DNA from: a virus
Direction: 5' to 3' (one strand)
DNA: 64,000 nt
IMG/VR virus record: IMGVR_UViG_3300033273_000460
Location: 1-64,000 of that record
The notes below the pieces were generated by a model. It had not been told where the DNA came from, ran no database searches, and saw nothing but the letters and a program-made list of their open reading frames with translations. This document shows positions 31,233-45,061 of this stretch, piece by piece. A program made the translations under genes and the position numbers. Within the stretch, counting starts at the first letter, position 1; the number at the start of each line of letters is the position of its first letter.

Positions 31233-31694
31233 TTAAGCTGTTACAACTTGGAATCTGCCTGGCTGATTTACATCGCCAATAGCATACGTGCCTGTGTTGA
31301 TTGCAACTGCTGATGTTTGATCATTGACCCACTGCACACGGTCTCCTACTGCTACCTGTGAACCTGTACCTAATGCACCAATTTCAATCCATGCATTTGT
31401 AATACGACTCACATAGTAAGTGCCGCCTGCACTGTCTGTTGCTGTTAACTGGCACTGACCTGCTGAAAGCGAGCCACTTGCTACTGCGGTTAGTGTGCAA
31501 GTTTCTGTACCATCACTTGTTGTGCAACGGAAACGGTGAGTGCCTTTTTGTGTAACAACGCTGGTGTTGTTAGCACTGCCGCCTGTGACGAATGCAATCA
31601 TACGAATTTGTTCGCCTGTGCCTGAATCTGCACCAATCGCACCTGTGTGGAAATTACCATCAACTGTTTTTGCTGTTCTTAGTGGACGTCCCAT
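31233..31694 (-). CDS. small virion structural protein
   Basis: 153 residues, start ATG at 31694 with a strong AAAGGAG ribosome site. GRPLRTAKTVDGNFHTGAIG at the N-terminus, beta-rich body (QKGTHRFRCTTSDGTETCTL, GTYYVSRITNAWIEIG, ALGTGSQVAVGDRVQWVND). I recognise it as one of the small conserved structural proteins of marine T4-like phages, whose place in the particle I cannot give. The strong ribosome site, folded leader and efficient terminator suggest high, isolated expression, which would suit a decoration protein present in many copies. Confidence 0.65.
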   Translation of the reverse strand: MGRPLRTAKTVDGNFHTGAIGADSGTGEQIRMIAFVTGGSANNTSVVTQKGTHRFRCTTSDGTETCTLTAVASGSLSAGQCQLTATDSAGGTYYVSRITNAWIEIGALGTGSQVAVGDRVQWVNDQTSAVAINTGTYAIGDVNQPGRFQVVTA

Positions 31695-31781
31695 TTGTTT
31701 TCTCCTTTATAGAAGCCCTATCCAAGTTCTACTTGGTACGCGGTGGGTTAGACCGCATAAGCCGTATTTTGCCGGCATAAG
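31695..31781 (-). promoter_or_regulatory. folded 5' leader of the 153-aa virion gene
   Basis: The leader between the late promoter (31782) and the ATG (31694) holds three consecutive short hairpins: CCAAGT/ACTTGG with a three-base loop (31722-31736), GCGGT/ACCGC (31740-31756) and GCCG/CGGC (31761-31776). The ribosome site lies outside all of them. It could stabilise the mRNA or regulate translation. No tRNA fold is formed. Confidence 0.4.
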
Positions 31782-38185: not shown

Positions 38186-40549
38186 TTATATTTCGTTACT
38201 GATACGTCTCAATAGATCGTTTGTTTCTGATCCTTGTCTAGTTTGTACATCTAGCAGTCTTTGCAACAATGCTGTGTGCTCAGTGCCAGTGTTTTGCATT
38301 GGTTCCTGTAAAGCATTTGCTCCTACAGCAGGTGTTGCGATTGCTGCAGTTTGTGTTGTAGACGTAGTGGTTGCATTCTGTGCATCATTTATTTTATCAA
38401 CAATACCAGCTAGTTCTGTAGCTCCAGGTATAACAAATCCTGCTAGTGCAGTCATTTTTGCTAGATCAAGTCTTTCTATAGCATCTGCAAATACTGTAAC
38501 TCCTGATGCTAAATCTCTTAGCTGGTCTGCAGGAGTGTCACCACCACTAACAATTTTACCAATGAATCCGCCTATAGCACCTGCTGCACTGCCACCACCT
38601 ATTACAGCCATAGCAGCACCAACTGCTGCTAGTCCTTTGGCTGCAGTTACTAGTCTCTCGCCATCTAGTTCTTCAAGACCTTTAAGACCGTCAGTAAGTG
38701 TTGGCAATGCACTACCTGTTAACCAAGCAGCGGCAGCAATACCTGCACCAATTGCTGTGATAACACCTGCTATTGTTGCAGCACCTGCTAATATTTTTAC
38801 ACTGCCTACACCAAATGCAGTCATACCTTTGGCTAGACTAGCTAACATACCGCCACCACCAGCAGCGCCACCGCCACCACCAGCCAAGCCAAACATCTTG
38901 GTTATACCACCACCAAGTTTGGTACCTATGCTGCTCATGATATTTCCAACACCGCCGGTCATTGCGCTTAACACTGCTGGGCCAGCAAACAGTGCAGTAA
39001 GTCCTCCTATGATAAGTGTTTTAGGATCTTGTGCTACTAGGAATTTTGCAATTCCGTCAACATTATCAGCAACAAACGTAAGACCGTCAACTAGTTTGTC
39101 AACAATGCCCAAGTCAATCAATTTGTTACCCAAGTTTTCAAAAGCAACTTGTATCTTAGCCATTGCTTCGCTGCGTTTGGCTGCTAGGTTAGCATTTTCT
39201 TGTTCGGTTGCTTGTTGTGCTCTTACTGTTGCTAGATTTTGATCCATTTGGGCATTACGTTCTTGTTGCTTGGTTAAGAATATACTGTTTTCAACACCAA
39301 TCTTTGTAAGAATGTTATTAGTGAATGCACTCATCTTTGCATATTCACGTGCAGTTTCGGCATCACGTTTAAGCTCTTGAGCCCTTTGTTGGCTACTTCG
39401 TGCATACGCACCTGCCATGTCTGATTCGCCACGGTTCAATGCATTAACAACATCCATCACACGACTAGCAACACCAGGCATTTGACTTGCTGCAGCGGCA
39501 GTTTCGCCTGTAAATGTTCCAATGGTCAATTGCTGTTTAAGCATCTGTTGCTCTAACGGACTCATACTTGCCATTAGTCCTTCTAAACTTTTGGCTTGCT
39601 CAACATCCATATCTGCTAGTAAGGCTTGGAATGCTGCATCCTGCTTTTGTGCTTTGAGTGCTGCTTCTTGTTCTTCTCTAGTTTGACCTGTAATCTCTTG
39701 CAATGCTTGTAAATCTTTACGATACTTCACTGCTACTGCAGCAATGCGTGTAAAGTCACCACCAAATGTGTTAAGACTTCGTCCGCTAGTTGAAAGATCG
39801 CTAATGAACTGTGCAAAGAATTCTGGCTGATCCTTTGCAGCGATGCCTAATCTAAACAATTCATTACTGCTGGCTTTGCCTGCTGCAGTTACTTGCGATA
39901 GTATTTGTGCGCCTTGTGTAGCAGTACCACCAAAGTCTGCTAATCCGCCTATGTTTTTTGAAACTGCATCAGCAAATTGTGTTACTGTAACACCAGCACT
40001 ACCTGCTGCCATTCTCATGGCAATCATATCGCCACCAAATGTAGCACCTGCCATGGTTAATTGTTGAAAAGTTTTTACACTCTTATCAAAAGCACCCATT
40101 GCAAGGCCGGCTACAAAACTTAAACCTGTAAGCCCTTGACCAGCTATTTTACCAGCAATACCAAGTTTACCAAATATTCCACCAAGTGGGCCGGTTATAG
40201 CACCCAGTGCTCCGCCCATGTTTTCGCCACTCTCGCCTAGTTTTTGAAAAGAATTGGATAGCGTACCGCCTACATCTTTGAGTTGCTGCGAAGTTTTGTC
40301 TAATCTTTCGCCAAAAGTGGTCAGCTTAACTTCATACTTTTCCATACCCTTAGTGGTACTGTCAACAATGTCTTGGTAACTTTTGGTTTCTTTTGTTGCT
40401 GCTTTTATGGCTGCAGCTTCCTCTTTTTTGACACCACTGTTGTCAGCAAATTTGCCTTCAAAAAGTTCAACCAGGCGTTGCAATGTTGCTTCTTCAGCAG
40501 CATTTTCTAATACTATAGGATTCCCGCCTAGATCACCTGTTACAGCCAT
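38186..40549 (-). CDS. 29: tail tape measure protein (gp29-like)
   Basis: 787 residues. It has an amphipathic, Ala/Gly/Gln-rich helical body (TTKGMEKYEVKLTTFGERLD, QEEQEAALKAQ-type stretches) and several hydrophobic segments at about 510-660 (LIIGGLTALFAGPAVL, ILAGAATIAGVITAIGAGIAAAAW, AVGAAMAVIGGGSAAGAIGGF), which may insert in the host membrane. This composition is typical of tape measures, which set tail length and leave the tail ahead of DNA. T4 gp29 is 590 aa. The gene is divergent from the gp26-like gene, a pairing that fits a chaperone for it. Ribosome site weak; a TATAAATG at 40587-40594 may be its promoter. Confidence 0.82.
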   Translation of the reverse strand: MAVTGDLGGNPIVLENAAEEATLQRLVELFEGKFADNSGVKKEEAAAIKAATKETKSYQDIVDSTTKGMEKYEVKLTTFGERLDKTSQQLKDVGGTLSNSFQKLGESGENMGGALGAITGPLGGIFGKLGIAGKIAGQGLTGLSFVAGLAMGAFDKSVKTFQQLTMAGATFGGDMIAMRMAAGSAGVTVTQFADAVSKNIGGLADFGGTATQGAQILSQVTAAGKASSNELFRLGIAAKDQPEFFAQFISDLSTSGRSLNTFGGDFTRIAAVAVKYRKDLQALQEITGQTREEQEAALKAQKQDAAFQALLADMDVEQAKSLEGLMASMSPLEQQMLKQQLTIGTFTGETAAAASQMPGVASRVMDVVNALNRGESDMAGAYARSSQQRAQELKRDAETAREYAKMSAFTNNILTKIGVENSIFLTKQQERNAQMDQNLATVRAQQATEQENANLAAKRSEAMAKIQVAFENLGNKLIDLGIVDKLVDGLTFVADNVDGIAKFLVAQDPKTLIIGGLTALFAGPAVLSAMTGGVGNIMSSIGTKLGGGITKMFGLAGGGGGAAGGGGMLASLAKGMTAFGVGSVKILAGAATIAGVITAIGAGIAAAAWLTGSALPTLTDGLKGLEELDGERLVTAAKGLAAVGAAMAVIGGGSAAGAIGGFIGKIVSGGDTPADQLRDLASGVTVFADAIERLDLAKMTALAGFVIPGATELAGIVDKINDAQNATTTSTTQTAAIATPAVGANALQEPMQNTGTEHTALLQRLLDVQTRQGSETNDLLRRISNEI

Positions 40550-40621: not shown

Positions 40622-41506
40622 ATGGCAATTGAGCAACAGACAATGACTAACAATTTAGACCAACCTGGTGGCAATCCACTGGGCAAATTTTTTAGGACGC
40701 CTGCAATACAATTGAGATTGCCTAGCGGAGGACGCTATTGGCCACCCGGCACACTTGATATGCCACAAACTGGCGAAATTCCAGTGTATTCAATGACTGC
40801 AAGAGATGAAATGATTTTCAACAATCCAGATGCTCTCATGAACGGACAAGCAGTGGTAGATGTGATACAAAGTTGTTGCCCAAATATAAAAAATGCATGG
40901 AGCATGCCCAGTGTTGATCTAGATGCAATACTTATTGCTATTCGTATTGCCAGTTTTGGTGAGAACATGGAGTTTAGGACTACTTGCCCTAGTTGTACTG
41001 AAGAAAATTCATTCGAACTTGATCTAAGACCAGTACTGGACAGTGTAAAGCAAGCACCACCATTTGACCAAGAATATGCTTATCAAGGGCTAACATTTAG
41101 TTTTAGACCACAAGACTACACCACAGTAAACATGGTCAATATTGAAACGTTTGAAAGTCAAAGATTGTTTAGTGTTGTAAATAATAGTGAATTACCCGAC
41201 GAAGAAAAACTAGAACGTGTAAATGAAATATTCAAAAAGATGACTGATTACACTGTGGGTATCATTGCAGGTGCCATTGAAAAAATTATTACACCAGACG
41301 GACAAGAAGTAACAAACAGTCAACACATTGACGAGTTTCTAAAAAATTGCGATCGTAAAACTTTTGATTGGGTACAAAAAAACATACAAGAACTAGGCAA
41401 ACAACAAGGCCTAAATGATGTAAATGTTAAATGTCCGGACTGCAATCATCAATATGAAATTCCATTAACATTTGATAACGCAAATTTTTTCGCATCAAGC
41501 TCTTAA
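40622..41506 (+). CDS. 26: T4_baseplate-family protein (gp26-like), possible tail assembly chaperone
   Basis: 294 residues. IQLRLPSGGRYWPPGTLDMPQTGEIPVYSMTARDEMIF is the hallmark of the T4-type baseplate-hub family annotated as gp26 in marine phages. VIQSCCPNIKNAWSMPSVDLDAILIAIRI follows. A Cys4 zinc site is likely from CPSC (about 123) and CPDC near the C-terminus. The codons AAT TTT near the end form an A AAT TTT slippery heptamer at 41482-41488; a -1 shift there continues into the downstream frame and yields a 366-aa product. The gene is divergent from the tape measure and not inside the baseplate operon, which supports a chaperone role. That role is inference. Confidence 0.8.
   Translation: MAIEQQTMTNNLDQPGGNPLGKFFRTPAIQLRLPSGGRYWPPGTLDMPQTGEIPVYSMTARDEMIFNNPDALMNGQAVVDVIQSCCPNIKNAWSMPSVDLDAILIAIRIASFGENMEFRTTCPSCTEENSFELDLRPVLDSVKQAPPFDQEYAYQGLTFSFRPQDYTTVNMVNIETFESQRLFSVVNNSELPDEEKLERVNEIFKKMTDYTVGIIAGAIEKIITPDGQEVTNSQHIDEFLKNCDRKTFDWVQKNIQELGKQQGLNDVNVKCPDCNHQYEIPLTFDNANFFASSS
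41482..41488 (+). promoter_or_regulatory. candidate programmed -1 ribosomal frameshift site A AAT TTT
   Basis: The heptamer AAATTTT is exactly in the X XXY YYZ register of the gp26-like frame (codons AAT, TTT), 15 nt before its TAA. In the -1 frame the sequence stays open from 41479 to the stop at 41719-41721. The codons before the first ATG (RIKLLTLSNDQIVE) look like genuine protein. A weak CCAG/CTGG stem-loop lies about 33 nt downstream; no strong pseudoknot is visible. Confidence 0.6.
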
Positions 41507-41532
41507 CACTATCTAACGACCAGATTGTTGAG

Positions 41533-41721
41533 ATGCTGGAACAAATGGACACATCGGTCGCTAAACTTCGCAAAGAACTTCTGACCATGTGTTGGTACAT
41601 GCGAGGAGGATTAACCTATGAGGAAAGTGTTTTCCTTAGCCTAAATGACAGAATAGCCATTGGTGAAATCATTGAGAGCAATCTAGAAACTACCAAGAAG
41701 TCAAGTTTACCATTTTTCTAA
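41533..41721 (+). CDS. -1 frame extension of the gp26-like protein (or separate 62-aa protein)
   Basis: From the only ATG (41533) this encodes 62 aa: MLEQMDTSVAKLRKELLTM, then CWYMRGGLTYEESVFLSLNDR and a TKKSSLPFF end. No ribosome site stands before the ATG. The frame is open back to 41479, and the extra upstream residues continue the helical pattern, so I think it is made mainly as a 77-residue C-terminal extension after frameshifting at 41482-41488. The helical, charged sequence with the WYMRGG core resembles short proteins found behind the gp26-like gene in other marine T4-like phages. A separately initiated protein cannot be excluded. Confidence 0.62.
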   Translation: MLEQMDTSVAKLRKELLTMCWYMRGGLTYEESVFLSLNDRIAIGEIIESNLETTKKSSLPFF

Positions 41722-42125
41722 CAACTGTAACAAGTTGAGCTAACGCTCAACTAAAACTTTCGCTTTCGCTCAGTTTTATTTTTCTAATTTCTTTTAAAAG
41801 CGAAGCTAATTCATGTTTCGTTAGATAGTGGTCATACTTCTCCCGTTGCCGGGAGAAGCACGTCTAATTCATCTTTCGTTGAGTGAGAACGCATAATAGT
41901 TAACGGAAGTCTTACGACCGAGGCGGTTATCCTGTACCTCTTTACTCCTGCTTCATACAGCGGAATCAACACACACCGTAACTATCCAATGTGTGCCAAC
42001 TGCGGTTGCTTTTTCTCAGAGCCGCATCATTTAGCCTAAAGCGTGGCCATACTGTGTCCAAATGCGACAATGTCGGGGTGTCGCGCAACCTTCAAGTATT
42101 TGATAAGGGACTATATAGCCTTAGT
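41722..42125. ncRNA. structured non-coding intergenic region, candidate RNA element
   Basis: This is the only stretch over 300 bases without a gene. It lies between two convergent genes and is visibly richer in G+C than its surroundings. Hairpins: AGTTGAGC/GCTCAACT (41733-41752, TAAC loop); CTTCTCCCG/CGGGAGAAG (41837-41858, TTGC loop); GAGG/CCTC (41919-41940 area); GCGACA/TGTCGC (42064-42084 area). Longer pairings are GGTTGC (42004-42009) with GCAACC (42085-42090) and ATCATTTAG (42026-42034) with CTAAATGAT (42131-42139). CTAATTCAT[G/C]TTTCGTT occurs at 41806-41822 and 41864-41880. Strand and function unknown; no tRNA, and not convincingly a group I intron. Confidence 0.4.
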
Positions 42126-42548
42126 TTAGCCTAAATGATTTTGTTCTTTGAGAATGCCTTTGCCGTGTACTCTTACACGGATGTGCCCATTGTAGTATTT
42201 GTCTGATTCTAATACTTTGTAATTGAACTGTTCTCTAGCTTCAATGTAAGATAACTCACTCTTGCTGTAACAATAAAAGAGTATCTCACGTTTGAAGTTG
42301 TCTTTGCCTAGTTGAGCTATATCTTCGTTGAGTTCGTCACTGGATCCATAATAGTCTCTCCAGTCACTTTCAACTTTGGTGCGCCTTCTATTCTTTTTGC
42401 CTTTTAGCGGTGGTTTAGATCTACTAAACTTTGCCAATTTTTTGCCTATGTATTGCCTATCATTGGTTGTGTTTGTTATGATATAAACAAACCCAACAAC
42501 ATCTTCTGGAAGTTCTTCAACTTCATTGCCTTGATATGTCCATGTCAT
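42126..42548 (-). CDS. GIY-YIG domain protein, putative endonuclease
   Basis: 140 residues from the ATG at 42548 (the TTG at 42557 is less likely). GFVYI (19-23) and QYIGKK (32-37) form the GIY-YIG pair. A basic patch (KFSRSKPPLKGKKNRRRTK) and WRDYYGSSDELNEDI follow. An IEAREQ helix provides the conserved Glu. The family makes sequence-specific DNA cuts (homing Seg enzymes of T4) or repairs DNA. The gene is conserved in many marine T4-like phages at non-homing sites, so it may be domesticated. It is convergent with the frameshift gene across the structured region. Confidence 0.72.
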   Translation of the reverse strand: MTWTYQGNEVEELPEDVVGFVYIITNTTNDRQYIGKKLAKFSRSKPPLKGKKNRRRTKVESDWRDYYGSSDELNEDIAQLGKDNFKREILFYCYSKSELSYIEAREQFNYKVLESDKYYNGHIRVRVHGKGILKEQNHLG

Positions 42549-42598
42549 GATATGCAATATAATTTAGCATACTTATCTAACAAGGACAACCTTTTTGA

Positions 42599-44392: not shown

Positions 44393-45061
44393 TCAACTCG
44401 TTTCGTTCCACAACTCTTTTATATGTTTTCCTATTGCTAAATGTTGTTCTTTGTTTGGGTGATTACCGCCGTGTTTACGATTAGCAATCCAGTAATCTGT
44501 GAAACCTTTATAATTTTTTTGATTTATTATTTCTTGCTCTAGTGTTTTTAAATTTGCAAACATTTCTTTGATATTGTTATCGTTAGTATTATGAAACCAT
44601 GGAAAAAGTATAAGATCTTGTGTGTAAATTTGTTGTTCAACACGATCTTGATTTAGCATCATCCAACGAATGTTGTTTTGATTAAACCAAGAAATTAATC
44701 GTAAGCATCTTAACCAATGTGTTCTTATACTTTCAAGTTGACAAAAATATTTCTTATAATAAGCATTTACAAATTTATCATCACTGTGTACACCGTGAAG
44801 TCCTCGAGGACCATAGTTTACATATTCTCTAGTATCTGCTTTGTATACACATTTTCTAATAGTGTTAGGCCATGCAACAATACAAGAATCAAATTTTGCA
44901 GTATTATAATAATAAGATTGTAAACTTATTTCTATGTGATCAATACTTTTGCCTGGTTTTGCTAAACTAATAACATTTTGGTCAACAACGTAAGGCCATG
45001 CATCCTTTGGATTATCTAATCCATCGCCGTGAGTGGTGCTACCGCCGTCAACAACTAACAT
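44393..45061 (-). CDS. SGNH-hydrolase-like protein between gp47 and gp46
   Basis: 222 residues. VVDGGSTTHGDG (Ser8 candidate nucleophile), SLAKPGKSIDHI with the block-II-like Gly, VAWPNTIRK with an Asn for block III, and a terminal GGNHPNKEQH with His201. This resembles SGNH hydrolases but is distant from the one at 6981, and no clear Asp precedes the His, so activity is uncertain. Its ATG overlaps the gp47 stop (TAATG), so it is co-translated with recombination proteins. The sequence is more AT-rich than its neighbours, suggesting a later insertion. Confidence 0.6.
   Translation of the reverse strand: MLVVDGGSTTHGDGLDNPKDAWPYVVDQNVISLAKPGKSIDHIEISLQSYYYNTAKFDSCIVAWPNTIRKCVYKADTREYVNYGPRGLHGVHSDDKFVNAYYKKYFCQLESIRTHWLRCLRLISWFNQNNIRWMMLNQDRVEQQIYTQDLILFPWFHNTNDNNIKEMFANLKTLEQEIINQKNYKGFTDYWIANRKHGGNHPNKEQHLAIGKHIKELWNETS

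Follow-up and report, generated by a model that had tools for sequence, protein, structure and literature searches.

A conserved slippery heptamer at the end of gp26-like genes points to short and long tail chaperone isoforms in the T4 superfamily

Does a gene of the T4 gp26 family specify two proteins from one start codon by programmed -1 frameshifting, in the manner of the tail assembly chaperones of lambda? Xu, Hendrix, and Duda are said to have described, in 2004, the lambda gpG/gpGT frameshift and other tail chaperone frameshifts of the G/T type. For the viral gene considered here, a preliminary description had proposed such a shift and had added that it was not an established feature of T4-like phages. 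A 2016 review does contain the statement that the G-T frameshift is widely conserved "except T4" (PMC5009743), but the point has to be qualified, since the tail chaperones of T4-like phages have already been discussed in print: they were identified by Vladimirov, Gautam, and Davidson (2022, Virology 566:9-15), who, by the title of their paper, propose a mechanism other than frameshifting. The summary given by the authors of PRFect is that "some T4-like phages" use one short and one long gene (PMC10885494), and the Adele paper cites Vladimirov et al. 2022 for polyT frameshift signals in the TAC genes of T4-like phages (PMC12846349). Part of the present finding may already be covered by Vladimirov et al. 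2022. Frameshifting in tail chaperone genes is itself known, and it is the evolutionary extension across the T4 superfamily that may be new.

The stretch of DNA analyzed, referred to as the window, comprises positions 1 to 64,000 of the IMG/VR record IMGVR_UViG_3300033273_000460, which is 107,770 bases long in full and belongs to a marine virus related to T4. Our analysis is one of comparative sequence, and both the frameshift and the isoforms are predicted from it. The gene of interest (40622..41506, plus strand) encodes a 294-aa protein of the T4 gp26 family (PF12322, PHROG 150), the putative short, TAC-N-like form, and its frame ends with GAT AAC GCA AAT TTT TTC GCA TCA AGC TCT TAA. Two overlapping slippery heptamers stand in register within this end. 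The one originally pointed out, A_AAT_TTT (41482..41488, plus strand), fits the X XXY YYZ pattern in step with the 294-aa frame, 15 nt before the TAA at 41504, as had been described, and T_TTT_TTC (41485..41491, plus strand) sits three bases downstream of it. A -1 shift at either heptamer would yield the identical protein of 366 aa. The -1 frame indeed contains no stop from a point shortly before the heptamer up to a TAA ending at 41721, and its extension of 76 aa plus stop (41491..41721, plus strand), joined to the short form, makes up the putative long, TAC-NC-like form. The first ATG of this frame, at 41533, opens a 62-aa ORF (41533..41721, plus strand) that begins inside the conserved extension and is probably no independent gene. 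That ATG had been called the only one in the frame; none precedes it, but further ATGs lie inside the ORF. Neither GTG nor TTG occurs in the -1 frame between the slip site and 41533.

The 294-aa protein matches the Pfam family PF12322 (T4_baseplate) with an E-value of 5e-23 and 82.3 bits, against a curated cut-off of 24.5, and PHROG 150 (baseplate hub) with 6e-27. T4 gp26 (208 aa) and T4 gp51 (249 aa) both belong to PF12322, and the window protein is a homologue of both. Across the whole 107,770-base record PF12322 was matched by the 294-aa gene alone, so the search revealed no second, gp51-like gene; the record may be a fragment. The structural model of the short form (pLDDT 84.7) matched T4-like hub assembly proteins in a viral structure library (best E 1.2e-24) and found no match in a PDB fold search. 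The extension was modeled as a confident helical domain (pLDDT 87.3); searches with it gave no match in the PDB or, for the 76-aa sequence, among PHROGs, and the 62-aa ORF had no match in Pfam.

To collect relatives, we used N-domain peptide patterns and did not make the slip site a criterion. An alignment-based search of IMG/VR provided 78 usable loci of the window clade, and 80 cyanophage-type loci came from another one started from P-RSM6. A preceding first search had returned marine contigs of 62-82% protein identity, all with the identical GCAAATTTTTTCG and a -1 extension. At the gp26 end, T_TTT_TTC stood in register in all 78 window-clade loci, every one of which continues in the -1 frame, and in 80/80 cyanophage-type loci; the pooled count of 158/158 refers to sequences that are related and not independent, and the site recurs across groups at about 30% identity or less. 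It is found in 16 cultured phages of the T4 superfamily, whose major groups share about 30% protein identity or less. The jumbo phages Phosso, Atu_ph07, 121Q, Vibrio 2.275.O, XaC1, and GAP32 (about 29-34% identity) keep T TTT TTC without A AAT TTT, and in the -1 frame they run on into a related extension. The heptamer is likewise present in the cyanophages S-SM2 and P-RSM6 and in PA5oct, RaK2, SCTP-2, Pelagibacter phage Mosig, Ahp1_CNU-2021, Yut3, S-H34, and Vibrio D480, while RAS14 and phiN3 have T_TTT_TTT at the gp26 end. We rejected A_AAT_TTT as the conserved site: it occurs in a minority of relatives (at most 22 of the 62 distinct window-clade sequences and 1 of the 80 cyanophage-type loci), whereas TTTTTTC occurs in all. 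The prediction that homologues would share a slippery heptamer thus holds, but the invariant one is T_TTT_TTC and not A_AAT_TTT, which may add slipperiness in the window.

The recurrence of the motif at the gp26 end exceeds what chance would give. In the same loci, TTTTTTC stood in register within the last 45 nt of other ORFs of at least 200 codons in 0/180 and 1/183 cases, and in none of these ORFs was it followed by a -1 frame of at least 50 codons. Phe-Phe dipeptides in their long ORFs were written T-TTT-TTC in 31 of 299 instances. Synonymous diversity across the site was 0.46 of expectation in the window clade (62 distinct sequences) and 0.60 in the cyanophage type (78 distinct sequences), compared to about 0.9 elsewhere along the gene. 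At the two slip codons it was zero, and the base preceding them was always T. The synonymous constraint anticipated for the overlap is therefore present in both groups.

The extension measures about 76 codons in all window-clade loci with complete extension sequence and 60-70 codons in the cyanophage type. Differences at the three codon positions of the -1 frame were 0.38/0.25/0.59 in the window clade and 0.34/0.20/0.51 in the cyanophage type; they fall mostly at third positions, indicative of protein selection in that frame. Directly after the heptamer lie the conserved residues R1, L4, and L5 (R-x-x-L-L), upstream of the first start codon in most window-clade loci and ahead of any start codon in the window, which bears out the view that protein-like sequence precedes the ATG at 41533. 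The first start codon of the -1 frame varies from locus to locus, being an ATG at codon 3, 4, 6, 14, 18, 19, or later, and an alternative start at a fixed position was found in neither group. In the window it lies at extension codon 14 (counting from 0), within the conserved domain.

On this evidence we consider it very probable that the gene makes short and long tail assembly chaperone isoforms by means of a -1 frameshift. The site, the constraint on it, and the lack of a conserved start lend strong support to the programmed shift and the G/GT-type analogy put forward in the preliminary description. T_TTT_TTC permits tandem slippage of two Phe-tRNAs. Most ribosomes would translate all 294 codons, stop at the TAA at 41504, and release the short gp26-like form. 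On a minority, the phenylalanyl-tRNAs on TTT and TTC at 41485-41491 would slip one base back and re-pair on TTT TTT, and these ribosomes would read 76 more codons to 41721, giving the 366-aa long form, whose C-terminal domain is modeled as helical. If the lambda gpG/gpGT pair is a guide, the tape-measure protein would be coated by the part common to both forms, and the domain found only in the long form would recruit tail-tube subunits. The conserved site, the conserved -1 frame, and the homology to gp26 and gp51 can be read directly from the aligned genes, and from them we infer the occurrence of the shift, its efficiency, and the chaperone role. Like the lambda pair, the window isoforms would share an N-terminus, with a -1 slip just before the short-form stop and a small C-terminal domain. 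The likeness is one of arrangement; the heptamer differs from that of lambda, and the window gene is divergent from its putative tape-measure gene. A further parallel is offered by the TAC of Pakpunavirus and Andersonviridae (PMC12846349), a tail chaperone of myoviruses for which comparative genomics likewise pointed to -1 frameshifting at a conserved polyT signal; its slippery motif is GTTTTT, and it belongs to other phage families.

Alternatively, the -1 ORF could stand alone as a small gene, read either through termination-reinitiation or from a start of its own. Most genome records, among them those of 121Q, Phosso, and cyanophages, list the second ORF separately. Many loci of the cyanophage type offer an ATG 3-4 codons past the slip site, and the stop codon of Vibrio K351 overlaps with an ATG (TAATG). 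However, a start codon whose position is not conserved and which, in the window, comes at codon 14 would deprive a separate 62-aa protein of the conserved R-x-x-L-L, and an independent gene would leave both the invariant TTTTTTC and the lost synonymous variation unexplained; we regard this explanation as very improbable. Even less credible is an origin of the long form in transcriptional slippage at the T homopolymer that occupies the junction. The run always consists of six T followed by C, whereas productive slippage on T tracts has been linked to more than eight T (PMC3711429), and the invariant seventh base C together with the codon phase fits tandem tRNA slippage.

It is unlikely, though less so than either of these, that the two isoforms exist but serve T4-like hub or baseplate assembly and not tape-measure chaperoning of the lambda G/GT kind. 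The classical role of T4 gp26 and gp51 is in hub assembly (PMC3004832), and the tape measure of the window is unproven. The gp26-like gene had been placed next to the tape measure, and it does adjoin a 787-aa ORF (38186..40549, minus strand); that ORF, however, is divergent, lying on the opposite strand, and is a candidate tape measure or virion structural protein by its position between the portal gene, which it adjoins, and gp26. It fell into no Pfam or PHROG family and showed no similarity to its RaK2 counterpart annotated as tape-measure-like. Against a purely hub-related role stands the gene order in cyanophages, Aeromonas Ahp1, Sinorhizobium phiN3, and Vibrio D480, where the locus precedes a large tail-type gene, either directly, as in the cyanophages, or after one or two small ORFs; the large neighbor in S-SM2 matches tape-measure PHROGs weakly (E 2e-5). 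Moreover, the two-isoform arrangement and the C-terminal helical domain match tail chaperones, and citing papers, where they touch on the T4 proteins, treat them as such.

If the -1 shift takes place as proposed, it may be aided by a stem-loop predicted at 41495..41540 (plus strand; -13.4 kcal/mol, z about -3), which starts 3-6 nt after the heptamer. This fold is also predicted in three close relatives (L001, L003, and L006) and is not clade-wide. A conserved downstream RNA structure was rejected, as RNAalifold gave no consensus in the window clade or the cyanophage type. On average, cyanophage-type loci nevertheless fold more stably just past the site than shuffled sequences do (mean z about -1.5), and a weak tendency of the same kind is seen in the window clade. 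An upstream Shine-Dalgarno-like stimulator was likewise discarded: a GAGG-type motif lies some 10 nt before the slip site in 71/80 cyanophage-type loci and in 0/79 loci of the window clade. Given this distribution and the restriction of the hairpin to close relatives, stimulators, if any, would be group-specific.

The relation to T4 suggests how the frameshifted gene may have evolved. The cyanophage short form plus extension aligned with T4 gp51 from near its N-terminus to near its C-terminus, across the junction (E 8.6e-18), and the cyanophage extension alone aligned with the gp51 C-terminus (E 1.2e-11). The window-clade extension matched the same position weakly (E 5.8e-5, probability 66%), and no homology was detected in a profile comparison of the window-clade and cyanophage extensions. 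The second ORF of P-RSM6 matched the tail end of PHROG 150 (columns 239-276). In T4 and three other Straboviridae, gp26 and gp51 are separate genes, and their gp26 ends have no TTTTTTC-type heptamer near the stop and no -1 extension. The N-terminal domain is homologous throughout, but T-even phages use two genes, gp26 for the short and gp51 for the long protein, where the window has one gene and a putative -1 shift. T4 gp51 would then correspond to the frameshift product but be encoded in a single frame, and the two-gene state of the T-even phages is probably derived. We lean toward the view that T_TTT_TTC frameshifting in gp26 was the ancestral route to both isoforms across the T4 superfamily, including cyanophages, Pelagibacter phages, RaK2/121Q-type jumbo phages, and uncultured marine groups, and that the separate T-even genes arose by duplication and fusion. 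If so, the notion that T4-type phages are an exception to G/T frameshifting would apply only to the T-even branch. The conserved site brings much of the T4 superfamily, abundant marine phages included, under the general rule by which phages with long tails obtain their paired chaperones through frameshifting, and it suggests an origin for the puzzling gp26/gp51 pair of T4. Slippage is not the sole route in the wider family, as the Ackermannviridae-type phage Det7 (L182, 4247 region) and Vibrio K351 (L183, 4130 region) have a -1 extension resembling the gp51 C-terminus and no canonical heptamer; in Vibrio K351, with its overlapping stop and start, another mechanism such as reinitiation may be at work.

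In public records (L178-L184, L189, L010, L096, and L097), the extension is entered as a gene in its own right, called either hypothetical or "baseplate hub assembly catalyst", which is probably a widespread mis-annotation; the small "hypothetical" or "gp51-like" gene of many genomes would be explained as a frameshift extension.

Several further features were seen around the locus. The extension is followed by about 400 gene-free bases (41721-42126) with short perfect hairpins at 41733-41752, which may be a terminator, and at 41837-41858. Just past the chaperone locus, a SegE-type GIY-YIG endonuclease gene with a TTG start (42126-42557, minus strand; PF19835, 6e-37) adjoins a gp46-like exonuclease gene, and between the gp46-like and gp47-like genes lies a 222-aa ORF (44393-45061, minus strand) that matched no Pfam or PHROG family. 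On the other side, the Rfam freshwater-2 cis-regulatory RNA motif (RF02980) was identified at 31692-31777 on the minus strand (66.4 bits, E 6e-8), immediately upstream of a 153-aa ORF (31233-31694, minus strand).
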